A stretch of DNA of 55,307 bases from Hyphomicrobiales bacterium. GTDB lineage: Bacteria > Pseudomonadota > Alphaproteobacteria > Rhizobiales > Xanthobacteraceae. The stretch is from contig JAFKKH010000034.1 of NCBI GenBank assembly GCA_017305665.1, positions 1-55,307 on the forward strand. The letters are read 5' to 3'. The notes beneath the pieces were generated by a model. It saw nothing but the letters and a program-made list of their open reading frames with translations, did no database searches and had not been told where the DNA came from. Positions within the stretch are counted from its first letter, which is position 1; each line of letters starts with the position of its first letter. Below, in pieces: positions 8,919 to 55,307 of this stretch. The position numbers and the translations under genes are program-made.

Positions 8919-11006
8919 ATGACCGCCGCCCCACCCCCGCCCGCCGCCGACCGCCGTCCGCACACATCCACGCACCACGGCATCGCCATTACCGACGACT
9001 ATGCCTGGCTGAAGGATGCAAACTGGCAGCAGGTGCTGCGCGAGCCAAAGCTGCTGGCGCCGGATATCCGCGCGCATCTCGAGGCCGAGAACGTCTATTC
9101 CAAAGCGCTGCTCGCGGCGACCGAACCGCTGCAGAAGCAACTCGTCGCCGAAATGCGGGGCCGCATCAAGGAAGACGATTCCACCGTCCCCTCGCCCGAT
9201 GGACCCTTCGCCTATTTCGCGAAGTATCGCGAGGGCGGCCAGCACCGCATAGTCGGCCGCCAGCCGCGCAACGGCGGCGAGGCGAAATTCCTCATCGATG
9301 GCGATGCGCTGGCCGCGGGCAAGAAATTCTTCCAGCTCGGCGGCGTCAGGCATTCGCCAAATCATCGCCTCGAGGCATGGAGCGCCGACGATCGCGGCTC
9401 GGAATATTTTACGATCCACGTACGCGACTGGGAGAGCGGCACCGATCTCGCCGACGTGATCGAGGAGACCGACGGCGGCGTGGTGTGGGCCATGGATTCG
9501 CGCGCGTTCTACTACGTCAAGCTGGACGACAATCATAGGCCGATGCAGGTCTATCGTCACCGGCTCGGCACGCCGCAATCCGACGATGCACTCGTCTACG
9601 AGGAGCAGGACACCGGCTGGTTCACCCATCTCCACGAAAGCGCCAGCGGCCGGTTCTGCGTGATCGCAGGCGGCGACCACGAGACGTCCGAGCATCGGCT
9701 GATCGATCTCGCCGAACCCGACGCGGTGCCGCGCCTGATCGCGGCGCGCGAGGACGGGGTGCAGTATTCGGTCGCCGACCGCGGCGATGAGCTGTTCATT
9801 CTCACCAACGCCGACGACGCCATCGACTTCAAGGTGATGACCGCGCCGCTGGCTGCGCCCGAGCGCGCCAACTGGCGCGATCTGATCCCCTACCGTCCGG
9901 GCACCTACGTGATCGATCTCGAGCTTTATTCCGGTCACATGGTGCGGCTCGAACGCGCCAACGCGCTGCCCTCGATCGTGATCCGCGATCTCGCGACCGG
10001 CGACGAGCACGCGATCGCCTTCGACGAAGCCGCCTACTCGCTTGACACCCACGGCGGCTATGAATTCGACACCACCACGCTGCGCTTCGGCTATTCGTCG
10101 ATGACCACGCCGACCGAGGTGTTCGACTACGACATGACGACACGGCAGCGGACCTTGCGCAAGCGCCAGGAGATTCCGTCAGGCCACAATCCCGCCGACT
10201 ACGTCACCACACGCATCATGGCCAAGGCCGACGACGGCGCCGAGGTGCCGGTGTCTATCCTGCATCGGAAAGGTCTCGCCCGCGATGGCAAAGCTCCGCT
10301 GCTGCTCTATGGCTACGGCTCCTACGGCCACGCCATGCCGGCGTCGTTCTCCACCAACCGGCTGTCGCTGGTCGATCGCGGCTTCGTCTACGCCATCGCC
10401 CACATCCGCGGCGGATCGGACAAGGGCTGGGGCTGGTATCTCGACGGCAAGCGCGAGAAGAAGACCAACAGTTTTGACGATTTCGCCGCTTGCGGCCGCG
10501 CGCTGATCGCAGCGAACTACACCTCCGCGAAAAACATCGTCGGCCACGGCGGCAGCGCCGGCGGCATGCTGATGGGCGCGGTCGCCAACCGCGCCGGCGA
10601 ACTGTTCGCTGGCATCGTGGCCGAGGTGCCGTTCGTCGACGTGCTCAACACCATGCTCGACGACACGCTGCCGCTGACGCCGCCGGAATGGCCGGAATGG
10701 GGCAACCCGATCGCAAGCGAGAAGGATTTCCGCACCATTCTATCCTATTCGCCTTACGAGAACGTCGCGGCGAAGGACTATCCGGCGATCCTCGCCATGG
10801 GCGGACTGACCGATCCGCGCGTCACCTACTGGGAGCCGGCCAAATGGATCGCGCGTCTGCGCGCCACCATGACGTCAGGCGGCCCGGTGCTGTTGCGCAC
10901 CAACATGGGCGCAGGACATGGTGGTGCATCCGGCCGCTTCGATCGGCTCGACGAGGTCGGACTCGCCTATGCGTTCGCGCTGTGGGCGGTGAAATATGAC
11001 AGTTGA
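8919..11006 (+). CDS. ptrB: oligopeptidase B-type S9 family peptidase
   Basis: This is a 695-residue prolyl-oligopeptidase family serine peptidase. The N-terminal beta-propeller begins with the family pattern RPHTSTHHGIAITDDYAWL and contains RIKEDDSTVPSP. The C-terminal alpha/beta-hydrolase domain carries the triad Ser546 (GGSAGG), Asp632 (GLTDPR) and His667 (GAGHGG). Oligopeptidase B cleaves short peptides after Arg or Lys in the cytoplasm. No signal peptide is present. The length fits the family (about 690). Start 8919 is chosen over 8871 because the added residues are Arg/Pro-rich and not family-like. The transcript probably ends before the collagen-like gene. Confidence 0.92.
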   Translation: MTAAPPPPAADRRPHTSTHHGIAITDDYAWLKDANWQQVLREPKLLAPDIRAHLEAENVYSKALLAATEPLQKQLVAEMRGRIKEDDSTVPSPDGPFAYFAKYREGGQHRIVGRQPRNGGEAKFLIDGDALAAGKKFFQLGGVRHSPNHRLEAWSADDRGSEYFTIHVRDWESGTDLADVIEETDGGVVWAMDSRAFYYVKLDDNHRPMQVYRHRLGTPQSDDALVYEEQDTGWFTHLHESASGRFCVIAGGDHETSEHRLIDLAEPDAVPRLIAAREDGVQYSVADRGDELFILTNADDAIDFKVMTAPLAAPERANWRDLIPYRPGTYVIDLELYSGHMVRLERANALPSIVIRDLATGDEHAIAFDEAAYSLDTHGGYEFDTTTLRFGYSSMTTPTEVFDYDMTTRQRTLRKRQEIPSGHNPADYVTTRIMAKADDGAEVPVSILHRKGLARDGKAPLLLYGYGSYGHAMPASFSTNRLSLVDRGFVYAIAHIRGGSDKGWGWYLDGKREKKTNSFDDFAACGRALIAANYTSAKNIVGHGGSAGGMLMGAVANRAGELFAGIVAEVPFVDVLNTMLDDTLPLTPPEWPEWGNPIASEKDFRTILSYSPYENVAAKDYPAILAMGGLTDPRVTYWEPAKWIARLRATMTSGGPVLLRTNMGAGHGGASGRFDRLDEVGLAYAFALWAVKYDS

Positions 11007-40814: not shown

Positions 40815-41615
40815 ATGAATATCGTCGAAAAGCCATTGTCCAATATCCACGGCCTGCATTTGAAGGCCTGCGATGGCGTCAACCTCGTGGCCGTCGGCTA
40901 TGGGAAGGGCACCCGGCTCGACACCCACATGCACCGCGAGGCGCAGCTCGTTTACGCCGCCAAGGGCACCATGCAGGTCACGACGCCGAAGGGCCGCTGG
41001 CTGGTGCCGCCGGACCGCGCGGTGTGGGTGCCGGCGCGGCTCGAACATGCCATCGACGTGCTGGCCGATATCGAGATGCGGACGCTGTATTTCGATCTCG
41101 GATGGTTGACGCGCGAAACCCCTACGATGGCGCTCGACGCCGAATTCGTGGTTCGGGTCTCACGGCTGCTGCATCAGGCGATCCTCGCGCTGTTCGACGG
41201 CCGCGATGATCCGGTCCGCACAAACCTCCTGATCCGGCTCGCGATGCTCGAGCTGCATCAGGCCGAGGATCCGGCGACGTTCATTCCGCTGCCGCACGAA
41301 CCGCGCTGCCGCCGCGCCGCCGACATCGTGCTCGCCGATCCAACGCAGGTCCACGACATCGACGATCTCGCGCGCACGGTCGGCACCTCGTCGCGCACGC
41401 TGTCACGGCTGTTCTCTAACGAGACGCAACTCAGCTTCAAGAGCTGGTGTCAGCGCGCGCGCATCGCGGCAGCGATCGAGCGGCTGTCGCTCAACCCGAA
41501 CGCGCCGGTGAAGCAACTCGCGGCGGAACTGGGTTATGCCAGCTTCCCGGCGTTCTCCCACGCGTTCCGGCAGGTCACCGGCCGTACGCCGACGGAGTTC
41601 GCGGAGGAGAAGTAA
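40815..41615 (+). CDS. AraC family transcriptional regulator
   Basis: The 266-residue protein has an N-terminal cupin-like sensor (THMHREAQLVYAAKGTMQV, LVPPDRAVWVPARLEHAIDV) and two C-terminal helix-turn-helix motifs in VHDIDDLARTVGTSSRTLSRLFSNETQLSFKSW and VKQLAAELGYASFPAFSHAFRQVTG. AraC proteins with this cupin usually respond to small ligands and control a divergent transporter, here the MFS gene. ATG 40815 is preferred. A TTG at 40794 would add seven residues. The repeat copy C lies after the stop. Confidence 0.93.
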   Translation: MNIVEKPLSNIHGLHLKACDGVNLVAVGYGKGTRLDTHMHREAQLVYAAKGTMQVTTPKGRWLVPPDRAVWVPARLEHAIDVLADIEMRTLYFDLGWLTRETPTMALDAEFVVRVSRLLHQAILALFDGRDDPVRTNLLIRLAMLELHQAEDPATFIPLPHEPRCRRAADIVLADPTQVHDIDDLARTVGTSSRTLSRLFSNETQLSFKSWCQRARIAAAIERLSLNPNAPVKQLAAELGYASFPAFSHAFRQVTGRTPTEFAEEK

Positions 41616-41837: not shown

Positions 41838-42287
41838 TTACTTCGGCACTACCGCGGTCGCCTCGATCTCGACGCGGGCGGCCTTCTCGACCAGCCGGAC
41901 CACCTGCACCAGCGCCATCGCCGGATAATGTGCGCCGAAAATCTCGCGATAGATTCCGCCAAGTTCCTTCTGATTGGCCAGATACTCGTCCATGTCGACG
42001 ACATACCAGGTCAGCCGCACCAGATGCTCCGGCAACGCACCGCCCGTGGCGAGAATCGTCCTGATGTTGCTCAGCACCTGCCGCACCTGCGCGACAAAGC
42101 CATCGGCAAGCTGCTCGCTCGCGTCCCAGCCGATCACGCCGCCGGTGACGATGAGGCGACCTTCCGCCGCCATGCCGTTGGCATAGCCTTTCGGAACCGG
42201 CCATCCCGACGGCTGCAGGACTTCCCGGTTGGATGGTCCAACGGAGATCGGCATCACGTTCAGCGTTGGGGCATTCGGCGGATTCAC
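41838..42287 (-). CDS. RidA family protein of the aryl-CoA cluster
   Basis: The 149-residue protein has the RidA fold: VTGGVIGWDASEQLADGFVAQVRQVLSNIRTILATGGA, VRLTWYVVDMDEYLANQKELGGIYREIFG, and PAMALVQVVRLVEKAARVEIEATA. The start is a GTG at 42287, chosen because AAGGAG lies at the right distance and the gene then begins 22 bases after the ligase stop. In this cluster it is a natural deaminase for the enamine or imine formed from the 2-amino ring product, which is inference. The RidA gene at 1.6 kb is a separate paralogue. Confidence 0.85.
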   Translation of the reverse strand: MNPPNAPTLNVMPISVGPSNREVLQPSGWPVPKGYANGMAAEGRLIVTGGVIGWDASEQLADGFVAQVRQVLSNIRTILATGGALPEHLVRLTWYVVDMDEYLANQKELGGIYREIFGAHYPAMALVQVVRLVEKAARVEIEATAVVPK

Positions 42288-42309: not shown

Positions 42310-44016
42310 TCATTCCGCAGCGGTCTGTGCGGACACCGCGCTGGCCTGCGCCATCTGCCGCAAGGCAAACCGTCGCAATTTTCCGGTCTCGGTCTTCGGC
42401 AATTCCGCGATGAATTCGATCGCGCGCGGATATTTGTAAGGCGCAATCTCGCGTTTGACGTGATCCTGCAGCGCGGTGATCAGCGCCGCATCGCCGCTGA
42501 CGCCCGGCGCCAGTACGATATACGCCTTGACGATCATGCCGCGCGCCTCGTCGGGCGCGCCGACCACGCCGCATTCGGCGACCGCATCATGGGTCAGCAA
42601 GGCCGCCTCGATCTCGGGACCGGCGATATTGTAGCCGGACGACACGATCATGTCGTCGGAGCGCGCCACGAAAGACAGACGGCCCTGCTCGTTCTGGACA
42701 AAGGAATCGCCGGTGAGATTCCAGCCGTCACAGACATAGTTCGTCTGCCGCTGATCTGCGAGATAGCGACATCCCGTCGGTCCGCGCACCGCGAGCTTGC
42801 CGACCGTGCCGGCCGCCACCTCGTTCATGTCCTCATCGACGATCTTCGCTTCATAGCCGGCCACCGGGCGGCCCGTCGTTCCCGCAGCGGCATCGCCGAT
42901 CCGGTTGGTGATGAAGATATGCAGCATTTCGGTGCTGCCGATGCCGTCGAGGATCGGCTTGCCGGTCTTGCGAACCCAGCTTTCGAACACCGGCGCCGGC
43001 AGGGTTTCGCCGGCGGACACCGCAAGTCGCAGCGACGACAGGTCGGCACCCTGGTCCATCGCCGCCATCATCGCGCGATAGGCGGTCGGCGAAGTGAAGC
43101 AGACCGTTGCCTTGTAGGTCTCGATGATCTTGATCATCTCGGGCGGCGCGGCGTTTTCCAGTAGCGTCGCGGTTGCACCGAACCGCAACGGGAAGATCGC
43201 GAGACCGCCGAGCCCGAAGGTGAAGGCCAGCGGCGGTGAACCGACGAACACGTCGTCCGGCGTCACCTTGAGCACTTCCTGCGCGTAGCCGTCCGCGATG
43301 ATCATCAGATCGCGATGGAAGTGCATGGTCGCCTTCGGCTCGCCCGTGGTGCCGGAAGTGAATCCCAGCAGCGCCACATCGTCGCGGCCGGTCTTCACCG
43401 CCTCGAAGCGCACCGGCTTGCTCAGCGCCACGCGATCCAGTTCGGCGTCATGGTTCGAGGTGCCGTCGAAATTCACGACCTGCTTGAGAAACCGGCTGGT
43501 CTTGGCGCATGCCACCAGCTCGTCGGCGATGCGGCTGTCGGTCAGCGCCAGCGCGATCTCGGCCTTGTCGACGATCTTGGCCAGCTCGCCGGCGCGCAGC
43601 ATCGGCATGGTGTTGACGACGACGGTGCCGGCTTTCGTCGCCGCGAGCCAGGCCGCGACCAGCGCCGGATTGTTGCCGGAGCGGATCAGCACGCGGTTAC
43701 CCGGCTTCACGCCGTAGTTCTCGACCAGCGCATGCGCCAGGCGGTTGGACCAGTCGGTCAGCTCCTTGTAGGTCCGCTGACGGCCGTTGCCGATCAGCGC
43801 GACGCGGTCGCCAAACCCCTTCTCGACATTGCGGTCGGTCAGTTCGACTGCGGCGTTGAGATATTCGGGGTACTGGAATTCGGGGCGTTCGAGCACCAGC
43901 TCCGGCCACTTCGCGAATGGCGGAAGGTTTCGCCGCGCGAAGTCGTCGACATGGCCAGACGGGCCGAGCTTGATCGACTCGTCTATCGATTCCGAATGGT
44001 TGGCAGTCGCGGCCAT
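42310..44016 (-). CDS. aryl-CoA ligase, 2-aminobenzoate-CoA ligase type
   Basis: The 568-residue adenylate-forming enzyme has the AMP-binding loop TSGTTGEPK at residues 220-228, the motif IGSTEMLHIF, and the catalytic Lys546 in ETGKLRR near the C-terminus. The overall pattern matches the benzoate/2-aminobenzoate-CoA ligases. It would activate anthranilate or a related aromatic acid to its CoA thioester in the cytoplasm. AAAGGAG lies at the right distance from the ATG. It heads an operon with the RidA gene. Two yTTTA-N4-TAAAr palindromes lie 43-81 bases upstream. Substrate is by context. Confidence 0.92.
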   Translation of the reverse strand: MAATANHSESIDESIKLGPSGHVDDFARRNLPPFAKWPELVLERPEFQYPEYLNAAVELTDRNVEKGFGDRVALIGNGRQRTYKELTDWSNRLAHALVENYGVKPGNRVLIRSGNNPALVAAWLAATKAGTVVVNTMPMLRAGELAKIVDKAEIALALTDSRIADELVACAKTSRFLKQVVNFDGTSNHDAELDRVALSKPVRFEAVKTGRDDVALLGFTSGTTGEPKATMHFHRDLMIIADGYAQEVLKVTPDDVFVGSPPLAFTFGLGGLAIFPLRFGATATLLENAAPPEMIKIIETYKATVCFTSPTAYRAMMAAMDQGADLSSLRLAVSAGETLPAPVFESWVRKTGKPILDGIGSTEMLHIFITNRIGDAAAGTTGRPVAGYEAKIVDEDMNEVAAGTVGKLAVRGPTGCRYLADQRQTNYVCDGWNLTGDSFVQNEQGRLSFVARSDDMIVSSGYNIAGPEIEAALLTHDAVAECGVVGAPDEARGMIVKAYIVLAPGVSGDAALITALQDHVKREIAPYKYPRAIEFIAELPKTETGKLRRFALRQMAQASAVSAQTAAE

Positions 44017-44058: not shown

Positions 44059-44078
44059 TTGCTTTAGACCTAAAGCAA
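44059..44078. promoter_or_regulatory. putative MarR operator 1 upstream of aryl-CoA ligase
   Basis: TTGCTTTAGACCTAAAGCAA is a perfect 9-2-9 palindrome with core CTTTA-GACC-TAAAG. It lies 43 bases before the ligase start. The same core recurs at four other sites at promoters of this cluster. Confidence 0.8.
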
Positions 44079-44083
44079 TTTCA

Positions 44084-44097
44084 TTTTAGGCCTAAAG
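44084..44097. promoter_or_regulatory. putative MarR operator 2 upstream of aryl-CoA ligase
   Basis: The core TTTTA-GGCC-TAAAG matches operator 1. Its centre is 22 bases from that of operator 1, about two DNA turns, so two dimers could bind on one face. Confidence 0.75.
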
Positions 44098-44171
44098 CAA
44101 TTCCATGCAAGCCCGTTTTTATGCCGTCCGCGCCGAAATCATTGGCTTCGTAAAGCGCTTTGGCCCACGCT

Positions 44172-44669
44172 TCAGCCCACTCGGCCATCGGCCGCCTTGC
44201 GCACCGACAGCTTGGTCTTGCCCAGAAGGCGCATCAGTTCGCGGACGTCTTTCTCGCCAAGGTCGGAAAACATCTCGGCAATCCAGATCTCGTGCTCGGC
44301 GGCCATCTTGCGGAATTCCACCCGGCCGGATTTCGTCAGGCGGATCACCTGCACCCGGCGATCGACCTCCGAGGTGCGGCGATCGACATGGCCCGATTGC
44401 ACCAGACGCTCGACCAGCCCCGTGATATTGCCGTTCGACACCATCATCCGTTTCGACACGTCGGACAACGTCATGCCGTCCGGCGCCTTGTCGAGCTGCG
44501 CCATCAGATCGAACCGCGGCAGCGTCACGTCGAAGCGTTCGCGCAAGCGGCTGCGCACCTCGCCCTCGATCAGCGTGGTGCAGGTCAGAAGCCGCAGCCA
44601 CAGCCGAAGTTCGTCGCCATGGTCGTCGGAATGCTCGGTGGCCTTGGTCTCGGAATCGAGAATGGTCAT
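44172..44669 (-). CDS. MarR family transcriptional regulator
   Basis: The 165-residue winged-helix protein has the MarR recognition region TLSDVSKRMMVSNGNITGLVERLVQSGHVDRRTSEVDRRVQVIRLTKSG. ATG 44669 gives the family length; the frame open to 45212 runs into the monooxygenase gene. It begins 17 bases after that gene's stop, so it is made in the same operon. MarR proteins of aromatic-CoA pathways (BadR, CouR) are released from DNA by the CoA thioester. The five palindromes in this cluster are its likely operators. Confidence 0.93.
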   Translation of the reverse strand: MTILDSETKATEHSDDHGDELRLWLRLLTCTTLIEGEVRSRLRERFDVTLPRFDLMAQLDKAPDGMTLSDVSKRMMVSNGNITGLVERLVQSGHVDRRTSEVDRRVQVIRLTKSGRVEFRKMAAEHEIWIAEMFSDLGEKDVRELMRLLGKTKLSVRKAADGRVG

Positions 44670-44686
44670 TGCGCTTTGCCCCGTCA

Positions 44687-47035
44687 CTATTCCGCCGCCA
44701 GCGACTTTTCCGCCTCGACCCGCATCTCGGCGCGGGTCTTCGGCTTGCCCTTGATCTTCAGCTCGTCGAGGTCCTGCCGGTCGCGCACGCTGTTGCGGAA
44801 TATCTGCTCCTTGCCGGGCAGATATTGCGGCGGACAGGCGACATCGGCGCCATACCACGCGGCTGCCCGCATGGTGAAGGACGGATCGACCAGATGCGGC
44901 CGCCCCAGCGCCACGAGATCGGCGCGGCCGGCGGCGAGAATGGTGTTGACCTGATCGGCGGTGGTGATGTTGCCGACGCACATGGTCGCGACACGCGCCT
45001 CGTTGCGGACCTGATCGGAGAACGGCGTCTGGAACATGCGGCCGTAGATCGGCTGCGCGTCGCGCACGGTCTGTCCGGTGGAGACGTCGACCAGATCGAC
45101 GCCGGCCTCGGCGAAAGCGCGCGCGATCTGCACCGCGTCGTCGCCGGCAATGCCGCCCTCGGCCCAGTCGGTGGCGGAGATGCGCACCGACATCGGCTTG
45201 TGCGCGGGCCATGCGGCGCGCATGGCGGCAAATATCTCCAGCGGATAACGCAGGCGATTATCGAGCGAACCGCCATAAGCATCGGTTCGTGTATTGGTCA
45301 GCGGCGAAATGAAGCTCGCCAGCAGATAGCCGTGGGCGCAGTGCAACTCCAGCATGTCGAAGCCGGCGCGCTCGCCGCGCTCCGCCGCCGCAACGAACTC
45401 GCCCTTGATGCGATCCATGGCGGCACGATCGATCTCGCGCGGCACCTGACTGTCCGGAAAATAGGGAATGGGCGACGCCGACAGCGTCTCCCACGCGCCC
45501 TGCTCCAGCGGACGGTCCATGCCCTCCCACATCAGCTTGGTTGCGCCCTTGCGGCCGGCATGCCCGAGCTGCAGCGCGATCTTCGCCGCCGAATTGGCAT
45601 GGACGAAATCGACGATGCGCCGCCACGCGGCTTCCTGCTCGTCATTCCACAAGCCGGCACAGCCCGGCGTGATCCGCGCATCGCGGCCGACGCAGGTCAT
45701 TTCCGTGAAGATCAGCCCGGCACCCCCGATGGCACGGGCGCCGTAATGCACGAAGTGGAAATCGCCGGGCACGCCCTCCTTCGCCGAATACATGCACATC
45801 GGCGACACCACCGCCCGGTTGGCGAGCGTCATCTCGCGCAGGCGCAGCGGCTGAAACATCGGCGCCTTCGACTTCTCGGTATCAACATCAAACCCGCGCG
45901 CGCGCACTTGCCGCGCGAAGGTCCTGTCGACCTCGGCGACAAACTCCGGCGCGCGCAAGGTGAGGTTGTCGTAGGTGATCGCCTTGGCGCGGGTCATGAC
46001 GCCGAACGCGAACTGCACGGGATCGAAATCCCAGAATCGGTCGACATGCTCGAACCAGACCAGCGACACGTCGGCGGCGTGCTGGGTCTTCTCGACCTCC
46101 TCGCGGCGGCCGTGCTCGTACTGCTGCAAGGCCGCGTCCACGGTCGGCGCGCGCGCCATGGCATCGGCCAGCGCGATGGCATCCTCCATCGCGAGCTTGG
46201 TGCCGGAGCCGATCGAGAAGTGCGCGGTGGCCTTGGCGTCGCCGAGCAGCACCATGTTGTCCTTGACCCAGCGCTGGTTGCGGATCATCGGAAAATTGCG
46301 CCACATCGAGCGGTTGGTCAGCAGCGGATGCCCGTCGAGATAGCGGCTGAAGATCGCGGCCATGCGATCCGCCGATTCCTTTTCGCTCAGACCTTCGAGA
46401 CCGGCACGTTTGAACGTCTCGGGATCGGTCTCGAAGATCCAGGTCGAGCGGCCCACTTCATATTGATAGGCGTGCGCGATGAACGGGCCCCACTCGGTCT
46501 CCTCGAACACGAACGTGAAGGCATCGAGCGGTTTGGTCGATCCCATCCAGGCGAACTTGTTGGTGCGCAGATCGGTCGCGGGCTGGAAGTGATCGGCATA
46601 GCGTTCGCGGAAGCGGCTGTTGCTGCCGTCGGCGAGCACGATCAGATCGGCATCGGCAAGGCCGCGGGTCTCATCGATCTCCGCCTCGAACATCAGGGTG
46701 ACACCGAGTTCGCGCGCGCGCTCCTGCAGGATCAGCAGCAAGGTGCGGCGCGAGCAGCCGCAGAATCCATTGCCGCCGATGCGATGCACGGTACCGCGGA
46801 AATGGATCGCGATATCGTCCCAGTAGGCGAATTCATCGGTGATGCGGCGATAGCTCGGCGGATCGTGTTGCTCGAAATTGTCGAGCGTAGCGTCGGAAAA
46901 CACTACGCCGAAACCGAAGGTATCGTCGGCGCGGTTGCGCTCGTAGACCGTGACTTCGGCTTGCGGCCGCTGCTTCCTGAGCAGGATCGCCGCGTACAGC
47001 CCCGCGGGGCCTCCCCCGATGATCGCGATCTTCAT
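44687..47035 (-). CDS. 2-aminobenzoyl-CoA monooxygenase/reductase (FAD-monooxygenase/OYE fusion)
   Basis: The 782-residue protein fuses two enzymes. Residues 1 to about 385 form a UbiH-like FAD hydroxylase ([10 protein letters not shown] at 7-16, [32 protein letters not shown]). From about 389 an FMN old-yellow-enzyme domain follows ([41 protein letters not shown] near 563). This is the domain plan of the A. evansii bifunctional enzyme, also labelled salicylyl-CoA 5-hydroxylase. It hydroxylates 2-aminobenzoyl-CoA and then reduces the ring. ATG 47035 follows GGAGA. A MarR operator lies 30-51 bases upstream. Confidence 0.93.
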
Positions 47036-47064
47036 GGCAGTCTCCATGAGACGATGACAGCAAA

Positions 47065-47086
47065 ATTACTTTAAGCATAAAATAAT
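47065..47086. promoter_or_regulatory. putative MarR operator 3 upstream of the monooxygenase/reductase
   Basis: The core CTTTA-AGCA-TAAAA lies inside longer arms (ATTACTTTA with TAAAATAAT, 8 of 9 pairing). It is 30 bases from the start codon and likely overlaps the promoter, as a repressor site would. Confidence 0.75.
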
Positions 47087-47150
47087 TGGACTGCAAGCCC
47101 AGGCGCCGTATTTGTCCGCGGCGTCCCCGTGGGCCACGGAGAGTTTTGAA

Positions 47151-47987
47151 TCAATTGCCCTGGAACGCCGGCTTGACCTTGTTGGCAAAGGCATGGAACG
47201 CACGCGAGAAATCCTCGGTGGTCATGCAGAGCGCTTGCGCCACCGCTTCCGCCTCGATCGCCTCCTCCACCGACATCGCCCATTCCATCGCCAGCATGCG
47301 CTTGGTCATGGTGTTGGCGAAGGTCGGGCCTTCCGCGATCGATTTTGCAAGCTGCTGCGCCTGCAACAGCACACTGTCGGGCGCGACGAGGCGGCTGAAG
47401 AAGCCCCATTTTTCGCCCTCCTCCGCCGTCATGAAGCGGCCGGTGTAAAGCAGCTCCGACGCGCGCGACTGGCCGATGATGCGCGGCAGGATCGCGCATG
47501 CACCCATGTCGCAGCCGGCGAGTCCGACCTTGTTGAACAGGAAGGCCACCTTGGCGCCGACAGCGGCGAGACGAAGGTCGGACGCCATCGCGACGATGGC
47601 GCCGGCACCGGCGCAGATGCCCTCGACCGCTGCCACGATCGGCTGCGGACAGGCGCGCATCGCCTTGACCAGATCGCCGGTCATGCGCGTGAACGCCGTC
47701 AGCCCCTTGGTATCCATCTTCACCAGCGGACCGATGATCTCGAACACGTCGCCGCCCGACGAGAAGTTGCCGCCGGCTCCCGTGACCACGATCGCCTTGA
47801 CTTCATCGTCGAACGCGCAGGCGCGGAAGACATCCGTCAGTTCGCGATAGCTCTCGAAGGTCAGTGGATTCTTGCGCTCGGGCCGGTTCAGCGTCACCGT
47901 CGCGACACCATCGACCACAGCCAGCAGAAAATGCTTCGGCGAATAGTCGGCCAGCGGCAGCGTGACGGGATTGGCAAGTCTGGTCAT
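47151..47987 (-). CDS. crotonase-fold protein (enoyl-CoA hydratase family) without the usual Glu pair
   Basis: The 278-residue protein has the crotonase oxyanion regions [10 protein letters not shown] and [15 protein letters not shown]. In mammalian hydratase the two catalytic glutamates fall at GGGCEL and QPEILLG; here my alignment puts Ile131 and Lys/Asn at those places, while Asp160 lies in [15 protein letters not shown] at the site used by PaaG-type isomerases. So it is not a classical hydratase, and might be a ring-opening hydrolase or isomerase acting on the cyclic CoA thioester. It lies 48 bases after the SDR gene in one operon. Function inferred. Confidence 0.88.
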
Positions 47988-48035
47988 GATCGTTTCCTCG
48001 ATTACCGTTTGTCGGAGGCGCGCTTCATCGCACGC

Positions 48036-48797
48036 CTAGATCTCCCCACCCGCCACCGCGATCGCCTGCCCGGTGATCGCGCTTGCGCCGTCGCCGCAGA
48101 GCCACAGCACGCAATCGGCGACCTCAGTAGGCGTCACCAGCTTCCCTTGCGGATTATGTTTTGCGAGTTCGGCCACCGCCTGCTCGCGCGAGCGGCCGGT
48201 CTTGCTCATGATGTTGTCGATGCTGGCGGCGACGAGGTCGGTGTCGGTAAATCCGGGGCAGACCGCGTTCACCGTGATCCCGCTGCTTGCGACTTCCAGC
48301 GCCAGCGAGCGCACCAGCCCGACGACCGCGTGCTTCGCGGCGCTGTAGGCGCTCACATAGGCATAACCTTTAAGTCCGGCCGTCGACGCGATCGCGACGA
48401 TGCGGCCACTGCCTCGCGCTTTCATCCCCGGCAACACGGCCTGCGCGGCATGCACCACGCCCATCACGTTGACATCGAACATGCGCTGGAACATTGCCGC
48501 ATCGGACTTGGCGAATGGCGCGGAGTCCGCCGCACCGGCATTGGCGATCAGGATGTCGATCGGCTGGCGCGCCGCGGCTTCCGCGATGGCCGCATTGACG
48601 GAAGCCTGGTCCGCCACATCGGCCACAACAGCCGCCTGCGCATCGCCGGAGGCAACGGCCTCATCGAGCGACGCACGATTGCGGCCGAGTACCGTGACCG
48701 TGGTGCCAGCGCGCGACAAACCGGCTGCGATCGCCCGGCCAATGCCGCGCCCGCCGCCTGTCACCAGCGCGTGATGCGACGCCAACGATCCCGCCAT
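48036..48797 (-). CDS. SDR family NAD(P)-dependent oxidoreductase
   Basis: The 253-residue classical SDR has TGGGRGIG near residues 13-20, NAG near 86, SIASTAGLKG, and the YxxxK pair in YSAAK. The C-terminal GDGASAITGQAIAVAGGEI is typical. Placed first in an operon with the crotonase and controlled by an operator-like palindrome, it is likely a 3-hydroxyacyl-CoA or cyclic 3-hydroxy/oxo-CoA dehydrogenase in the aryl-CoA pathway. The substrate is not decided by sequence. Confidence 0.92.
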   Translation of the reverse strand: MAGSLASHHALVTGGGRGIGRAIAAGLSRAGTTVTVLGRNRASLDEAVASGDAQAAVVADVADQASVNAAIAEAAARQPIDILIANAGAADSAPFAKSDAAMFQRMFDVNVMGVVHAAQAVLPGMKARGSGRIVAIASTAGLKGYAYVSAYSAAKHAVVGLVRSLALEVASSGITVNAVCPGFTDTDLVAASIDNIMSKTGRSREQAVAELAKHNPQGKLVTPTEVADCVLWLCGDGASAITGQAIAVAGGEI

Positions 48798-48833
48798 GCT
48801 GCGCCTCGTCGTGATGAACCTCAGGCCGGTATA

Positions 48834-48847
48834 TTTTAAGCTTCAAG
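48834..48847. promoter_or_regulatory. putative MarR operator 4 upstream of the SDR
   Basis: TTTTA-AGCT-TCAAG matches the cluster operator with one mismatch (TCAAG for TAAAG) and lies 37 bases before the SDR start. Confidence 0.55.
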
Positions 48848-48886
48848 CTTTTGCAAGGAAGCCTTCGCGACGGCGATCCCAAACTC

Positions 48887-48900
48887 CTTTAATTCTAAAA
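48887..48900. promoter_or_regulatory. putative MarR operator 5 upstream of the alpha/beta hydrolase
   Basis: CTTTA-ATTC-TAAAA matches the cluster operator exactly (yTTTA-N4-TAAAr) and lies 68 bases before the GTG start of the hydrolase, the first gene of the plus-strand run. Confidence 0.7.
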
Positions 48901-48967
48901 CTATCGCTTTTCATATAATTCCGGCCTGCTAGGATCGGCGCCACGGAATAGCACGGGAGGCACCGGC

Positions 48968-49777
48968 GTGACCGATCTCGCAGCACGCAAAACCAGCAAT
49001 GGCCGTTTCGGCTTTGAGGCTGCCGGCGATCCCGATGCGACACCGCTGGTGTTCTTGCACGGCATCGGCGGCGCGGCGCGGGCCTTTCGCGGGCAGCTCG
49101 CCCATTTCAGCGATAGGTTTCATGCGATCGCCTGGGACATGCCGGGCTATGGCGGATCGCAGCCGCTCGCGAAGGTCAGCATCTCCTTTCTCGCCGACGC
49201 GCTGAAGGATTTTCTGCACGACGTTGGTGCCAGCAAACCGATCATCGTCGGGCATTCCATCGGCGGCATGATCGTGCAGCAACTGCTCGCCGACCATCCC
49301 ACCATCGCCCGCGCGATCGTGCTGGCGCAGACCAGCCCCGCCTTCGGCAAGGCTGATGGCGACTGGCAGAAATCATTTATCGAGGCCCGGCTCGGGCCGC
49401 TCGACCGCGGCGCGACCATGCCGCAGCTCGCACCGTCGCTGGTCAAGGAACTGGTCGGCGACGCCCCTGATGCCGCCGGCATGGACGTTGCGCGGGAGTG
49501 CATGGCCGCGGTGCCGGAGGCGAGCTATCGCGCCATGATGCTGGCGCTGATGGGTTTTGACCTGCGCGCCGCGCTGAAAAACATCGCGGTGCCGACGCTG
49601 GTGCTCTCCGGCTCGAAAGACAACAATGCCCCCGCGCCGATGATGGCGAAGACGGCAAGCTTCATCCCCGGCGCGCGCTATGTCGAACTTGCAGGCGTTG
49701 GCCATCTCGCCAATCTGGAGCGCCCCGGCGAATTCGATGCGGCACTCGACGATTTCCTGAAAGCGATCTCCTCATGA
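48968..49777 (+). CDS. alpha/beta hydrolase (enol-lactonase-like)
   Basis: The 269-residue hydrolase has the oxyanion HGIGG, nucleophile in GHSIGG, acid in SGSKDNNAP and His in GVGHLANLE. The pattern resembles 3-oxoadipate enol-lactonases and ring-cleavage hydrolases. The start is a GTG at 48968 with GGGAGG at 48955-48960. The last base run overlaps the next gene as ATGA. It likely opens a lactone or a ring-derived ester, or cleaves a CoA thioester, in the pathway. This is inference. Confidence 0.9.
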   Translation: MTDLAARKTSNGRFGFEAAGDPDATPLVFLHGIGGAARAFRGQLAHFSDRFHAIAWDMPGYGGSQPLAKVSISFLADALKDFLHDVGASKPIIVGHSIGGMIVQQLLADHPTIARAIVLAQTSPAFGKADGDWQKSFIEARLGPLDRGATMPQLAPSLVKELVGDAPDAAGMDVARECMAAVPEASYRAMMLALMGFDLRAALKNIAVPTLVLSGSKDNNAPAPMMAKTASFIPGARYVELAGVGHLANLERPGEFDAALDDFLKAISS

Positions 49778-51060
49778 CCACACAATCCGCCAAGGCCGCC
49801 GATCTCAACGCCATCAAGCTCGATGCACCGATCTTCGATCCGCAAGCGTTCCGCCTTACCGACGCGCAGGCCGAGATCATGTCCACCGCACGGCGGCTCG
49901 GTCAGACCGTGTTCACGGGACGCGCGGCCACCTACGACCGGGAGGCCAGATTCCCGAGCGAGAACTACAAGGATTTGCATACCTCCGGCTTGCTCGGCAT
50001 CGCGATCCCGAAGAAGCACGGCGGCCTCGGCGCCGACTACCAGACTTATGCCATCACGGCTGCCGAGATCGGTCGCTACTGCGGCGCGACCGCGCTGACC
50101 TGGAACATGCACGTCTGCTCGACGCTGTGGTCGGGCCCGCTGGCCGATGACCTCGAGATGGATGCCGCCACGCGCGCGGAGCACGAGCGCCGCCGTGCGA
50201 TCCACTACAAACGCATCATCGACCAAGGCGCGATCTATTCGCAGCCGTTTTCGGAAGGTGGCGCCGCGGCCGCCGGTGGTGTCGCCTTCGGCACCGAGGC
50301 AAAGCCGGTCAAGGGCGGCTGGATCGTCAACGGCAAGAAGATCTTTGCCTCGCTGTCCGGCCATGCCGACTACTACGGCGTGCTTTGCACCGAATTGGCC
50401 GAAGGCGAAAAGGCCTCGCGGCGCAACACGCTCTATCTCGCGGTGCCGGCGAAAGCCGAGGGCGTTTCGGTGGTCGGCGACTGGGATCCGCTCGGCATGC
50501 GCGGCACGGTCTCGCGCACCCTGATCTTCAAGGACGTATTCGTCGCCGAGGACGAGGCCCTGATGCCGCGCGGCGTCTACTTCAAGGCCGCATCGAGCTG
50601 GCCGCACATGTTCCTGACGCTGTCGCCGACTTACGTGGGGCTCGCGCAGGCGGCCTACGACTTCACCGTACGTTACCTGCGCGGCGAAATGCCAGGCACC
50701 CCGCCGGTGAAACGGCGGATGTATCCGACCAAGCAGATCGCGGTGGCGCAGATGCAGATCAAGCTGGAGCAGATCAAGGCGATCTGGTTTCAAGCCGTCA
50801 CCGAAGCCGGCCCCAATCCGAGTAAGGAGCAGGTGCTGCGTGCCTATGCCGCGCAATATTCCGCCATGGAAGGCGCCAACGAAATCGCGACACTGGCGAT
50901 CCGCACCTGCGGCGGCCAGGCCATGCTGAAATCGCTGCCGCTGGAGCGCATCTATCGCGACAGCCGTTGCGGCTCGCTGATGCTGCCCTGGACCGCCGAG
51001 CTCTGCCTCGACCGTATCGGCCGCGAGGCGCTGTATGAGGCTGGCGAGAGCGATGCGTGA
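49774..51060 (+). CDS. acyl-CoA dehydrogenase
   Basis: The 428-residue flavoprotein has the family pattern: GLLGIAIPKKHGGLGADYQTYAI, QPFSEGGAAAAGGVAFG, GGWIVNGKKIFASLSG and the C-terminal SAMEGANEIATLAIRTCGGQAML. It would oxidise an acyl-CoA to the 2,3-enoyl-CoA with FAD and an electron-transfer flavoprotein. The ATGA overlap couples it to the hydrolase gene. No ETF genes are in view. Repeat copy D follows. Substrate unknown but likely a product of ring cleavage. Confidence 0.92.
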   Translation: MTTQSAKAADLNAIKLDAPIFDPQAFRLTDAQAEIMSTARRLGQTVFTGRAATYDREARFPSENYKDLHTSGLLGIAIPKKHGGLGADYQTYAITAAEIGRYCGATALTWNMHVCSTLWSGPLADDLEMDAATRAEHERRRAIHYKRIIDQGAIYSQPFSEGGAAAAGGVAFGTEAKPVKGGWIVNGKKIFASLSGHADYYGVLCTELAEGEKASRRNTLYLAVPAKAEGVSVVGDWDPLGMRGTVSRTLIFKDVFVAEDEALMPRGVYFKAASSWPHMFLTLSPTYVGLAQAAYDFTVRYLRGEMPGTPPVKRRMYPTKQIAVAQMQIKLEQIKAIWFQAVTEAGPNPSKEQVLRAYAAQYSAMEGANEIATLAIRTCGGQAMLKSLPLERIYRDSRCGSLMLPWTAELCLDRIGREALYEAGESDA

Positions 51061-51192: not shown

Positions 51193-51254
51193 GACAGCTA
51201 AGGTCGTTGCGCACATCCGCTCCAATTGAGACCGCGCCGAGTTTGGCTGCACAT

Positions 51255-52757
51255 ATGAACCTCTCCGACCTCATCGCGCGCAATGCCGCCTTCACGCCGG
51301 ACCAGCCGGCGCTGCGCTTCGAGGGCGAGGCGCTGAACTATGCGGCGTTCGCGGCGCGTATCGCAGCAACAGCGCACGGGCTGGCGACCCAATGCGGTGT
51401 CGGCAAAGGCGACCGCGTCGCGATCCTCAGTCTCAACCGGCCCGATTATCTCGTGCTGCTCTACGCCTGCGCGCGGCTGGGCGCCATGCTGGTGCCGATG
51501 AACTGGCGGCTCGCCGTCGCCGAACAGCGCTTCATCCTCGCCGACGCCGCGCCAAAAGTGCTGGTGCTGGAGCAGGCCTTCGCCGACGTCGCACCGCTGG
51601 CCGCGAACGATCTGCCGGGCCTGCACATCCTTGGCCTCGACTTCGAAACGCCGACCATCCGCCCCTTCGGATCTCTGCTGGACACCACGCAGACGGCCCC
51701 GGCAACAGGCAGCCTCTCCGATCCCCTGCTGATCGTCTACACCTCCGGCACCACCGGGCGGCCCAAGGGCGCCGTGCTGCGGCAGGAGGCGCTGCTGTGG
51801 AACGGCGTGATGAGCCAGCACATGCACGGCCTCACCTCGGACGATCATGTGCTGACCGTGCTGCCGTTCTTCCACGTTGGCGGCCTCAACATCCAGACCA
51901 CGCCGGCGCTGCATCACGGCGCGACGGTGACGATCCATGCGCGCTTCACACCCGACGCCACGCTCAAAACCATCAGCGAAGATCGCCCTACCCTCACCGT
52001 GCTGGTACCGGCGACGATCCAGGCCGTCAGCGATCATCCCGCATGGGCCGCGACCGACCTGTCGTCATTGAAAGCGGTGTCCACCGGCTCGCAGGTGGTG
52101 CCACCGCATCTGATCGAGCGCATCGTCGCGCGCGGCGTGCCGGTGCTGCAGGTCTACGGCTCGACCGAGACCTGCCCGATCGCGATCTACACCCGGCTTG
52201 GCGGCGAAACCAGCCGGCACGAAACGACGGGCCTCGCGGGATTGTTCTGCGAAGCGATGATCGTCGACGACGCCGGCCGCGAGTTGCCGCCGGATGTGGC
52301 CGGCGAGATCGTGGTTCGCGGGCCAAACGTGTTCTCCGAATACTGGCGCAACGCGGATGCGACGCGCGAGGCGCTGCGCGACGGCTGGTATCGCACCGGC
52401 GATGTCGCGAGCCGCGACGCCGACGGCTATTTCATCGTGCGCGATCGCAAGAAAAACATGATCATTTCCGGCGGTGAGAACATCTATCCCGCCGAGGTCG
52501 AGCGCGTGCTGCTCGAGCATCCCGCGATCGCGGACTGCGCGGTGATCGGCCGGCCCGATCCGAAGTGGGACGAGGTGCCTGTGGCCTATGTCATGTTGCG
52601 CGCCGACCACGTCGTCCACACCGACGATCTTTACATTCACGTGCTGGCCCAACTGGCGCGCTTCAAGGTGCCGCGCGAATTCATTGTGGTAAAGGATCTG
52701 CCGCGCACCGCGCTCGGCAAGGTGCAGCATTTTGTGCTGAGGCAAAACGCGTCATGA
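51255..52757 (+). CDS. second acyl/aryl-CoA ligase (class I adenylate-forming)
   Basis: The 500-residue ligase has the AMP loop YTSGTTGRPKGAV (about 161-173), VYGSTETCP, DGWYRTGDVASRDADGYF, and the catalytic Lys489 in ALGKVQHF. The length and pattern fit medium/long-chain or aryl acyl-CoA synthetases. ATG 51255 is preferred; the frame extends to 51207. The stop overlaps the next start (ATGA), so the three downstream genes are coupled. It lies after a repeat, so it may have its own promoter. Substrate unknown; different from the first ligase. Confidence 0.92.
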   Translation: MNLSDLIARNAAFTPDQPALRFEGEALNYAAFAARIAATAHGLATQCGVGKGDRVAILSLNRPDYLVLLYACARLGAMLVPMNWRLAVAEQRFILADAAPKVLVLEQAFADVAPLAANDLPGLHILGLDFETPTIRPFGSLLDTTQTAPATGSLSDPLLIVYTSGTTGRPKGAVLRQEALLWNGVMSQHMHGLTSDDHVLTVLPFFHVGGLNIQTTPALHHGATVTIHARFTPDATLKTISEDRPTLTVLVPATIQAVSDHPAWAATDLSSLKAVSTGSQVVPPHLIERIVARGVPVLQVYGSTETCPIAIYTRLGGETSRHETTGLAGLFCEAMIVDDAGRELPPDVAGEIVVRGPNVFSEYWRNADATREALRDGWYRTGDVASRDADGYFIVRDRKKNMIISGGENIYPAEVERVLLEHPAIADCAVIGRPDPKWDEVPVAYVMLRADHVVHTDDLYIHVLAQLARFKVPREFIVVKDLPRTALGKVQHFVLRQNAS

Positions 52758-53848
52758 AAATTACGGTTCTCGGCGGCGGCAACGGGTCGTTCGCAGCCGC
52801 CGGCGATTTTGCCTTGCAAGGGCACGACGTCCGGCTCTGGCGGCGCGATGGCGAAGCGGTTGCCGCGCACCGCGCGGCCGGCTCGCGTATCACTGTCAAA
52901 GATTCGAAGGGCCGCCACGAGGCGCAACTCACGCTTGTCACAACGGACATGGCGAAGGCCGTTCGCGACGCCGAGTTGATCCTCTGCCCCGCGCCCGCCT
53001 TCGCGCAAGGCGACATCGCCCGCGCGCTCGCACCACATCTGGCCGATGGGCAGGTGGTCTTTTTGCCGCCGGCGACCTTCGGCTCGATGGTCTTCGCGCG
53101 GGCTGCGTGGGATGCCGGCAATCGCGCCGATGTCGCCTTCGCGGAAACCGGCACCCTGCCCTGGCTCACCCGCAAGCATGGTCCGTTCGAGGTCGCGATC
53201 ACCATTCGCGCGAAACGTCTGCCGGTCGGTGTGTTCCCACTTGCGCGCGCCGATCATGCGCTGGCCGTCATCGGCAAGGCGTTTCCGGGCGCGATCGAAC
53301 CCTGCGGCGATGCGCTGTCGGGCGCGCTGATGAATGCGGGGCCCATCATCCATCCGCCGCTGATCGTGATGAACGCCGGACCGATCGAGCACTTCGAGCG
53401 CTGGGATATTCACAAGGAAGGCACGCAGAAATCGATCCGCCGCGTCACCGACGCGCTGGATGCCGAGCGCGTCGCCATCCGCGAGGCGCTGGGCTACGGT
53501 GCGCCGCATTTTCCGCTGGCGCATCACTACGCCAAGGAAGGCGAGATATGGATGTACGGACGCGGCTCCCATGACCGCCTCACCGATAGCGGCGACTGGC
53601 GCGAGCGACTGATCCTCACCGAGCATCGCTACATGCGCGAGGATCTCCACGTCGGGTTGTCGTTCTTCACGTCGGTCGCGGCGCTGGCCGGTGTTGCCAC
53701 GCCGCTGATGAAAGCGTTTCTCGCCATCGGCGGTGCGGTCTGCGGCGAGGATTTTTTGCACGGCGGACGTACGCTGGAGAGCCTTGGCCTCAGTGGGATG
53801 GACAAGGCGGCGTTGCAGACGCTGCTGAATGAAGGATTCGCGCCATGA
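52754..53848 (+). CDS. octopine/nopaline dehydrogenase-family protein
   Basis: The 364-residue protein has the Rossmann motif GGGNGSFAAAGDFALQGHDV near residues 7-26 and the family stretch ALSGALMNAGPIIHPPLIVMNAGPIE with its catalytic-site His. A C-terminal RTLESLGL segment also fits. Octopine-type dehydrogenases reduce imines formed between amino acids and 2-oxo acids with NAD(P)H. In a catabolic operon it could act in reverse on an N-linked intermediate, which is inference. ATGA overlaps link it to both neighbours. Confidence 0.9.
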   Translation: MKITVLGGGNGSFAAAGDFALQGHDVRLWRRDGEAVAAHRAAGSRITVKDSKGRHEAQLTLVTTDMAKAVRDAELILCPAPAFAQGDIARALAPHLADGQVVFLPPATFGSMVFARAAWDAGNRADVAFAETGTLPWLTRKHGPFEVAITIRAKRLPVGVFPLARADHALAVIGKAFPGAIEPCGDALSGALMNAGPIIHPPLIVMNAGPIEHFERWDIHKEGTQKSIRRVTDALDAERVAIREALGYGAPHFPLAHHYAKEGEIWMYGRGSHDRLTDSGDWRERLILTEHRYMREDLHVGLSFFTSVAALAGVATPLMKAFLAIGGAVCGEDFLHGGRTLESLGLSGMDKAALQTLLNEGFAP

Positions 53849-54837
53849 CCGCGCGCGACAAAATCGCGGCGTTAGGCGCGGGACGCATGGGCCGCGGCAT
53901 CGCGATCGCGTTCGCCTATGCCGGTCACGAGGTCGCGCTGATCGACTTCAAGCCGCGCGAGACTGCGGCGTTCGACAAGCTCGCTACCGGCGCGCTCGGC
54001 GACATCGAGACGACACTCAAAATGCTGGCACGGGTCGGCTTGCTCACCGCCGATGACGTTGCGCCCGTGCTGGCGCGGGTGCGCGTGGTGGCGGAGGCCA
54101 ATGCCGCCGAGGCCTTGCGCGAGTCCGCCATCATTTTCGAAGGCGTGCCTGAGGTCGTGGACCTGAAGCGCGATGCGTTGGCGCGTGCATCGCGTCTCGC
54201 AGGGCCAAAGCCGATCATCGCCTCGACCACGTCAACGATCCTGGTCGACGATCTCTCCGGCGCGGTCGAACGTCCCGAACGTTTCCTCAATGCACACTGG
54301 CTCAACCCGGCCTATCTGGTGCCGCTGGTCGAGCTGTCGCCCGGCCGAGCCACCGATCCCGCCGTCACCGCGCGCGTCAGGGCGGTGCTGGACGGCATCG
54401 GCAAGGTGCCCGTGGTGTGCGCCGCGACGCCCGGCTACATTGTGCCGCGCATCCAGGCCCTCGCCATGAACGAAGCCGCGCGCATGGTCGAGGAAGGCGT
54501 CGCATCTGCCGACGAGATCGACAAGGCGATCAAGTACGGCTTCGGCTTCCGCTTCGCGGTGCTCGGCCTGCTCGAATTCATCGACTGGGGCGGCGGCGAC
54601 ATCCTGCACTACGCGAGCAAATATCTGACCGGCGCGCTGAACAGCGAGCGCTATGCCGCGCCCGAGATCATCGGCCGCAACATGGCGGAGGGCAAGATCG
54701 GCCTCTCGACGCGGCAGGGCTTTCTCGATTACACGGGCATGGATGTCGACGCCTATCGCGAGGCGCGGCTGAAGGCCTTCGTCGATCTGCTGCGGCATTT
54801 CGAGCTAGCACGGAAGCCGGTGGTCGACCGCGACTAA
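53845..54837 (+). CDS. 3-hydroxyacyl-CoA dehydrogenase (HAD family)
   Basis: The 330-residue enzyme has the NAD motif GAGRMGRGIAIAFAYAGHEVALIDF near the start and the catalytic block NAHWLNPAYLVPLVEL. It then has a C-terminal domain FGFRFAVLGLLEFIDWGG. It would oxidise a 3-hydroxyacyl-CoA in beta-oxidation of the ring-derived acyl chain. Coupled by an ATGA overlap to the octopine-dehydrogenase-like gene. The stop codon overlaps the stop of the converging edge gene in CTAA. Confidence 0.92.
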   Translation: MTARDKIAALGAGRMGRGIAIAFAYAGHEVALIDFKPRETAAFDKLATGALGDIETTLKMLARVGLLTADDVAPVLARVRVVAEANAAEALRESAIIFEGVPEVVDLKRDALARASRLAGPKPIIASTTSTILVDDLSGAVERPERFLNAHWLNPAYLVPLVELSPGRATDPAVTARVRAVLDGIGKVPVVCAATPGYIVPRIQALAMNEAARMVEEGVASADEIDKAIKYGFGFRFAVLGLLEFIDWGGGDILHYASKYLTGALNSERYAAPEIIGRNMAEGKIGLSTRQGFLDYTGMDVDAYREARLKAFVDLLRHFELARKPVVDRD

Positions 54838-55307
54838 CCGAACACGTCCTGCAATTCGCCGTCGCGGATCACCACATTGCCATCCAGCGCGATCGTGGTG
54901 CCGAACATCGGCAGGTCGAAATGTCCGGCGGTGTAGCGGCCGGCGAACTCATTCGCACCCGTCGAGAACAGGAAATTGCCGGCCACCGCGCGGATCTCGG
55001 TGCCGTTGGTGTCACGCTGATCGTACATGGTCAGCGCCTCGTAGCGCGCGTTCGGGTTCATGCCCCAGCCGACATGGGACACCGCATAGGCCTCGCGGTC
55101 GCCCCACGCCGCGAGATAGCGCTTCATCATCTCGGCGTCGGCGCCCTCGCCTCTCAATTCGGTGACGTAATCGTCCTTGATCGTCATGTCGACGGCCGAG
55201 GTCAGATAGCGTTTGAAGGTCAGGTTGATATCGCCCGCCGCCATCACCAGCCGGCCGTTGACGCCGCCGCTCTTCGGAAAACTCACCACGATGCCGCCGG
55301 GCCAGTG
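54834..55307 (-). CDS. M29/NicX-like metalloprotein, 5' end outside the window
   Basis: The 157 visible C-terminal residues include SHVGWGMNPNARY, then AGNFLFSTGANEFAGRYTAGHFDLPMFG. The His of SHVGWG and the HxD pair of GHFD match the three iron ligands of 2,5-dihydroxypyridine dioxygenase NicX, which shares the M29 aminopeptidase fold. So it may be a leucyl aminopeptidase-like enzyme or an extradiol-type ring-cleaving dioxygenase. The frame is open to the edge. It converges on the plus-strand pathway genes. The choice between peptidase and dioxygenase needs the missing N-terminal half. Confidence 0.7.
   Translation of the reverse strand, partial: HWPGGIVVSFPKSGGVNGRLVMAAGDINLTFKRYLTSAVDMTIKDDYVTELRGEGADAEMMKRYLAAWGDREAYAVSHVGWGMNPNARYEALTMYDQRDTNGTEIRAVAGNFLFSTGANEFAGRYTAGHFDLPMFGTTIALDGNVVIRDGELQDVFG

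Follow-up and report, generated by a model that had tools for sequence, protein, structure and literature searches.

CouR, FerC and HcaR are MarR-type repressors of hydroxycinnamate catabolism, and several of them are released by aromatic coenzyme A (CoA) thioesters, according to excerpts of the respective papers (PMC5487221, PMC4737184). IadR/MarR_73, the auxin-responsive MarR protein of iad loci, is described in an excerpt of PMC9613470 as binding free indole-3-acetate. Here, we analyze a stretch of 55,307 nucleotides from a Hyphomicrobiales bacterium (GenBank assembly GCA_017305665.1, contig JAFKKH010000034.1, positions 1 to 55,307), hereafter the window. It encodes a MarR-family regulator in a cluster with an aryl-CoA ligase and a two-domain flavin monooxygenase/reductase, both of which a 2-aminobenzoyl-CoA pathway requires, and the palindrome YTTTA-N4-TAAAR precedes four operons of this cluster (Table 1). 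The cluster's own MarR protein very probably uses the palindrome as its operator and would repress all four operons. As in the CouR/FerC/HcaR systems, so far as the excerpts describe them, a protein of MarR fold is combined with a CoA-ligase pathway, a probable thioester inducer and palindromes at the promoters of the catabolic cluster that encodes the protein, the operon of the regulator included. The pathway is a different one here, and the CouR/FerC/HcaR operator is, as far as known, another one. A Corynebacterium study (PMC13118786) reportedly concerns a MarR protein of aromatic-degrading genes. MarR control is also shared with IadR, whose catabolic route ends at anthranilate in Bradyrhizobium according to the excerpt (PMC9613470); unlike the iad regulator, the present MarR sits in a CoA-dependent cluster. 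In the open-access PMC literature searched, available as excerpts, no MarR protein is named for a CoA-dependent pathway of the anthranilate type. One of four strings of the motif occurs in PMC9635640 and PMC6352095. The excerpt of PMC6449761 mentions anthranilate via the AraC-type regulators AntR/AndR only, and that of PMC3534580 places anthranilate-CoA ligase and monooxygenase/reductase beside PaaX-related regulators in Arthrobacter.

The sequence-only reading had listed five palindromes before the genes for the ligase, the monooxygenase, a short-chain dehydrogenase/reductase (SDR) and an alpha/beta hydrolase. All five were found, four of them exact and the SDR copy with one mismatch. They do precede all four genes, but the distances of 30 to 81 bases given there have to be corrected to edge-to-start gaps of 45 and 67 bp for the ligase, 21 or 33 for the monooxygenase (two candidate ATGs), 36 and 89 for the SDR and 67 for the hydrolase. 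Allowing up to one mismatch, the window contains five matches compared with 0.36 expected (mean of 100 dinucleotide shuffles), and five were reached in none of the 100 shuffles, which bears out the assertion that the sites are unlikely to have arisen by chance. When the organism's own genome (5,025,433 bases, 47 contigs) was scanned, the exact motif occurred only six times in these 5.03 Mb, with four copies in the window. Five of the six belong to the cluster if the copy at C22:791-804, just past the window's right edge on a separate contig, is included; when aligned to contig C901 of G008, a genome of the same genus that has this site as well, the end of the window and the start of C22 overlap. 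The sixth copy (C37) lies within an open reading frame with a Band_7 domain. Many hits at unrelated promoters, which the sequence-only reading had named as a refuting result, did not occur, as exact copies at such promoters were absent from this genome. With up to one mismatch, 54 places were retrieved, 6 in the cluster and 48 elsewhere, and the one-mismatch motif alone is non-specific in this genome. The pattern YTTKA-N4-TMAAR is present at 14 places outside the cluster. Of all these non-cluster places, the exact copy in C37 was the one inspected. A chance origin of the motif was considered and rejected on account of the shuffles, the genome-wide rarity of exact copies and the spacer controls described below.

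For comparison, 184 loci were collected, 130 of which were chosen by MarR. They comprise 51 non-window places around MarR homologs in 47 other genomes (relatives' loci), 79 named loci from Bradyrhizobium, Tardiphaga, Microvirga and others (the best 80 of 588 confirmed relatives with one duplicate removed) and 54 of 73 monooxygenase places picked by the monooxygenase alone (phylum loci). Exact copies with a four-base spacer number 32 in the relatives' loci, compared with zero to two at any other spacer from 0 to 12; the corresponding figures are 163 versus zero or one in the named loci and 10 versus zero to three in the phylum loci. When one mismatch is allowed, runs of T and A make spacers 3 and 5 score as well and blur this control. 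The operator is longer than its core, and the consensus from the named loci, AATTRYTTTARGCYTAAARYAATT, spans about 24 bp. YTTGA-N4-TAAAR, the form of the window's SDR site when read toward its gene, recurs at the SDR promoter in many Bradyrhizobium loci, and 8 of the 184 loci carry a G..C form (GTTTA-N4-TAAAC or similar).

Conservation in orthologous clusters, which the earlier reading had made a touchstone, proved strong in nearer relatives and weaker in distant ones. The motif occurs at many cluster promoters in the relatives' loci. In the named loci, where sites with up to one mismatch were counted, 259 of 275 fall within the 250-bp upstream windows of cluster genes, which account for 113,227 of 1,360,905 bases (8.3%). 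An upstream site was present in 72 of 77 loci for the ligase, 45 of 48 (with an exact copy) for the monooxygenase, 48 of 69 for the SDR and all 32 (31 exact) for the hydrolase; note that the SDR and hydrolase windows overlap in a common intergenic region and that their counts share sites. MarR itself is preceded by a site in 63 of the 79 loci, in every case with one mismatch. Operon-internal genes of the same loci have no upstream site, neither RidA (0/73) nor enoyl-CoA hydratase (ECH, 0/67), acyl-CoA dehydrogenase (ACD, 0/8) or the AMP-forming ligase LIG2 (0/8). Aligning 9-10 sequences shows conserved sites amid diverged flanks, with the one exception of L199, which is devoid of the hydrolase-side site. 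The two ligase copies 22 bp apart, to which the sequence-only reading had drawn attention, are present in the window, but the pair was seen in this lineage only; the 72 of 77 named loci with a ligase site have a single one within 250 bp. The distal copy (44084) bears a conserved TTGC and corresponds to the orthologous ligase site. In the phylum loci, TTTA-N4-TAAA with up to one core mismatch is found no more than 200 bp upstream of the monooxygenase gene in 42 of 54 cases (exact in 15), compared with 14, 14, 28 and 6 at spacers 2, 3, 5 and 6, while the core is inside the monooxygenase gene in none of the 54. Overall, a Y..R operator lies upstream of the monooxygenase, ligase or SDR gene in 135 of the 184 loci.

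The window MarR exceeds the cut-offs of PF12802 and PF01047 and is predicted to adopt a winged helix-turn-helix structure (mean predicted local distance difference test score 86.8). Its best DNA-bound Foldseek matches are the MarR-operator complexes of MftR (8ylg) and FabT (6jbx), the latter also being the second-best sequence match, although both differ from the window protein in controlling other regulons and in sharing only about 26% identity. The closest solved sequence is that of 3boq, a MarR-family protein of Silicibacter pomeroyi (E 3.9e-22); in the recognition-helix region the two proteins pair VTNGNVSGLV with VSNGNITGLV. The names CouR, FerC and HcaR are absent among the 30 PDB sequence matches, which mostly bear generic names, and a search of open-access papers yielded no FabT-box motif usable for comparison.

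Regulator, enzyme and sites occur together. At thresholds of E<=1e-150 for the monooxygenase and E<=1e-30 for the MarR profile, 71 of 398 phylum genomes encode the monooxygenase, 72 the MarR and 68 both, with three having the monooxygenase only and four MarR only (Fisher p ~1e-67, shared ancestry ignored). Among 121 nearer relatives the monooxygenase was detected in 44 and MarR in 48; both were present in 44, MarR only in four and the monooxygenase only in none. MarR is thus found in 68 of 71 monooxygenase genomes and, within the cluster, in 170 of the 184 loci, bearing in mind that 130 were selected by this very gene. Ten genomes have no MarR in the fetched stretch, and eight of these carry one elsewhere. 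The pattern YTTTARNNYTAAAR, which was narrowed after the cluster sites had been seen, matched 49 places in 26 MarR-bearing relatives and 2 in 20 relatives without MarR. The former have the closer MarRs among the 47 other genomes with one, the latter are those listed without a match from a total of 73, and both sets were drawn from the 121 relatives. The reversed pattern was found at 83 places in the 26 genomes and at 74 in the 20 others; it differs in base composition and has no TA steps, and therefore spacer variants and MarR-negative genomes were used as controls. In genome G405, a weak local match coincides with absence of MarR genome-wide and of a site near the monooxygenase. Two gene arrangements around MarR deserve mention in their own right. 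In L079 (G047, 9628-10182) MarR has no monooxygenase gene ahead of it but an operator with one mismatch at a distance of about 50 bp. In L135, L136 and similar Bradyrhizobium loci, about 3.3 kb separate the monooxygenase from MarR, which has its own one-mismatch operator.

Several observations weigh against the assignment of the palindrome to this MarR. Beyond the nearest group, the core is missing from most ligase and SDR promoters; it was found at 9 of 38 ligase and 18 of 32 SDR promoters in the relatives' loci and at only 2 of 37 and 4 of 38, respectively, in the phylum loci. Neither the Y..R nor the G..C operator was present in 43 of the 184 loci, some of which do not contain these genes. 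The named loci stem mostly from Bradyrhizobium and hence are not independent. With the looser YTTKA-N4-TMAAR, the preference for the four-base spacer is less sharp (in the named loci 269 at N4, compared with 48 at N3 and 57 at N6; in the phylum loci 19 at N4, compared with 2-15 at other spacers). Of the 26 MarR-bearing genomes, seven have no exact site. In G167, where no MarR match was obtained and the contig ends just past the monooxygenase gene, this gene is preceded by a site; G425, which lacks MarR, has one close to the monooxygenase start. Finally, exact sites in G033 lie beside unrelated-looking HlyD and endonuclease/phosphatase genes.

Taken together, the evidence supports the MarR regulon proposed in the sequence-only reading, with a hypothetical inducer. 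A MarR dimer on AATTRYTTTARGCYTAAARYAATT would control the ligase-RidA, monooxygenase-MarR, SDR-ECH and hydrolase-ACD-LIG2 operons, the last of which is presumed to be one operon from spacing and strand, and a fifth transcription unit just past the window's right edge may be subject to the same operator. The MarR gene starts 17 bp past the monooxygenase stop, in keeping with the claimed location of MarR in the monooxygenase operon, and the site upstream of the monooxygenase therefore implies that control of this operon would be autoregulation. Such a mechanism is conventional, well supported rather than surprising.

The CoA thioester of the pathway, most simply 2-aminobenzoyl-CoA, would release MarR. 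The cluster probably serves the breakdown of anthranilate, an assignment made indirectly, from kynurenine genes linked to the operator in relatives. In G089 an exact site stands before the genes for tryptophan 2,3-dioxygenase and a kynureninase with a weak match (29.7 bits, cut-off 27). In G070 the gene run behind the site encodes a hydrolase, the dioxygenase and kynureninase, and in G031 tryptophan 2,3-dioxygenase has an exact site at a similar distance. Anthranilate is the product of kynureninase. Bradyrhizobium also forms it from indole-3-acetate, as stated in the excerpt of PMC9613470. On the other hand, the exact site was seen before tryptophan dioxygenase in only three of the eight genomes having that gene (27 searched), two of these three share one genus, and the window's own genome encodes no tryptophan 2,3-dioxygenase. 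Pathway and inducer could alternatively revolve around salicylyl-CoA, which we regard as unlikely. The NCBIfam model matched by the monooxygenase, NF006101, is named salicylyl-CoA 5-hydroxylase, and among 25 plasmid-borne homologs, listed out of 95 matching records, 23 bear this name too, whereas the same exact operator stands before tryptophan-to-anthranilate genes in three genomes, and an enamine intermediate would fit with the Rid-family gene of the ligase operon. We take the window monooxygenase to be of the same general type as 2-aminobenzoyl-CoA monooxygenase/reductase.

Exact sites also precede genes for substrate-binding proteins of ATP-binding cassette (ABC) transporters in G020, G063, G045 and G012, and in the last of these, genes resembling indolepyruvate oxidoreductase and benzoate/anthranilate dioxygenase (below NCBIfam cut-offs). 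Tentatively, and with somewhat less than even confidence, we suggest that a single MarR-operator pair, conserved from rhizobia to other Proteobacteria, could be devoted to switching the entire tryptophan-kynurenine-anthranilate-anthraniloyl-CoA route. It would sense 2-aminobenzoyl-CoA and, in one lineage after another, would have drawn in kynurenine operons, genes for indole/aromatic oxidation and ABC importers. The present proposal gives a widespread CoA-dependent aromatic pathway a specific regulator and an operator of 24 bp, and genes linked to the motif, among them those of the kynurenine pathway and of ABC importers, can be annotated with its help in other genomes. If the proposal is true, such a MarR, sensing a CoA thioester and having a clean operator, would also make a candidate biosensor.

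The direction of control is indicated by the placement of the sites. In gene orientation, TTGC is found 13 bases ahead of the ligase site in all 70 distinct named-locus sequences. At the monooxygenase and the SDR it stands 8-18 bases ahead of the site in 36 of 46 and 44 of 48 distinct sequences, respectively; the counts for hydrolase and MarR sites are 0 of 32 and 2 of 63. A plain sigma-70 scan lent no support (one promoter-like match versus 0.9 expected), and the promoter assignments thus rest on conservation. In the window, the operator overlaps the core promoters of the ligase, monooxygenase and SDR genes and fills the spacer between their -35 and -10 elements, which implies repression: a dimer bound there would exclude RNA polymerase. 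For the hydrolase, the promoter elements are uncertain, with a TATAAT at 48914-48919. That MarR acts instead as an activator, or as activator and repressor, is improbable given the location between -35 and -10 in three promoters, even though the hydrolase site may sit at or upstream of -35 and some MarR proteins do activate, as noted in the excerpt of PMC5487221.

Still less probable is that a different regulator reads the palindrome. The AraC-family protein encoded next to the cluster comes to mind, which bears a weak likeness to AndR, a regulator of anthranilate dioxygenase genes (39.7 bits, cut-off 350). AraC homologs (E<=1e-10) are, however, encoded in a mere 5 of the 184 loci, compared with the 170 containing MarR. 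An even-spaced inverted repeat fits a MarR dimer. The idea that the motif is nothing but a conserved promoter element, an AT-rich -10 region, can hardly be upheld: its right arm does coincide with the -10 hexamer at the ligase and monooxygenase promoters, but it is palindromic with a fixed four-base spacer, the MarR-proximal sites lie at a median of 122 bp from the start and mostly without TTGC, and exact copies are nearly absent from the 20 MarR-negative genomes.

Table 1 Genes of the cluster and proposed operator sites in the window, with remarks on each.
Feature	Coordinates	Strand	Remarks
AraC-family protein	40815-41615		beside RidA gene
Rid-family protein (RidA)	41838-42254		downstream of ligase; TIGR00004 2.8e-15, below cut-off
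Benzoate-CoA ligase family (proposed 2-aminobenzoate-CoA ligase)	42310..44016	-	TIGR02262 above cut-off
Second ligase operator	44062..44075	-	22 bp from 44084 copy
Ligase-RidA operator 1	44084..44097	-	CTTTAGGCCTAAAA on - strand; between TTGCAT (44110-44105) and TAAAAT (44088-44083), 16-bp spacer
MarR-family regulator, 165 aa	44172..44669	-	Pfam MarR_2 2.6e-11; proposed operator reader
Flavin monooxygenase/reductase, two-domain	44687..47047	-	NF006101, 1143 bits (cut-off 1078)
Monooxygenase-MarR operator	47069..47082	-	between TTGCAG (47096-47091) and TAAAGT (47073-47068), 17-bp spacer
Enoyl-CoA hydratase (ECH)	47151-47987		next downstream of SDR; PRK08258
SDR oxidoreductase	48036..48797	-	
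SDR-ECH operator	48834..48847	-	one mismatch; CTTGAAGCTTAAAA on - strand; between TTGCAA (48856-48851) and TATACC (48833-48828), 17-bp spacer
Divergent hydrolase operator	48887..48900	+	67 bp upstream of GTG start
Alpha/beta hydrolase	48968..49777	+	
Acyl-CoA dehydrogenase (ACD)	49774-51060		after hydrolase
AMP-forming ligase (LIG2)	51207-52757		after acyl-CoA dehydrogenase
3-Hydroxyacyl-CoA dehydrogenase	53845-54837		further on; PRK08269-type

At the right edge of the window, a gene of about 347 codons (P0003, G008 ortholog) is broken by the contig end and runs on the minus strand through 54834-55307 and C22:1-722. It has its own exact operator, the C22:791-804 copy already mentioned. The encoded protein has no Pfam match and presumably resembles 2,5-dihydroxypyridine dioxygenase/M29-like proteins.

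Genome G012 has five exact off-cluster sites (L103-L107). Their neighbours include aromatic-ring dioxygenase-like and flavocytochrome-like genes, two transporter binding proteins and the indolepyruvate-oxidoreductase-like gene, and this may be a case of regulon expansion. Sequence relationships of the ligase follow a pattern of their own. The window enzyme shares about 51-59% identity with the ligases in most clusters of nearer relatives and 73-80% with those in 11 more distant loci, in which the monooxygenase, if there is one, reaches only 51-55%. The pattern suggests that the ligase was replaced horizontally inside the same regulon.

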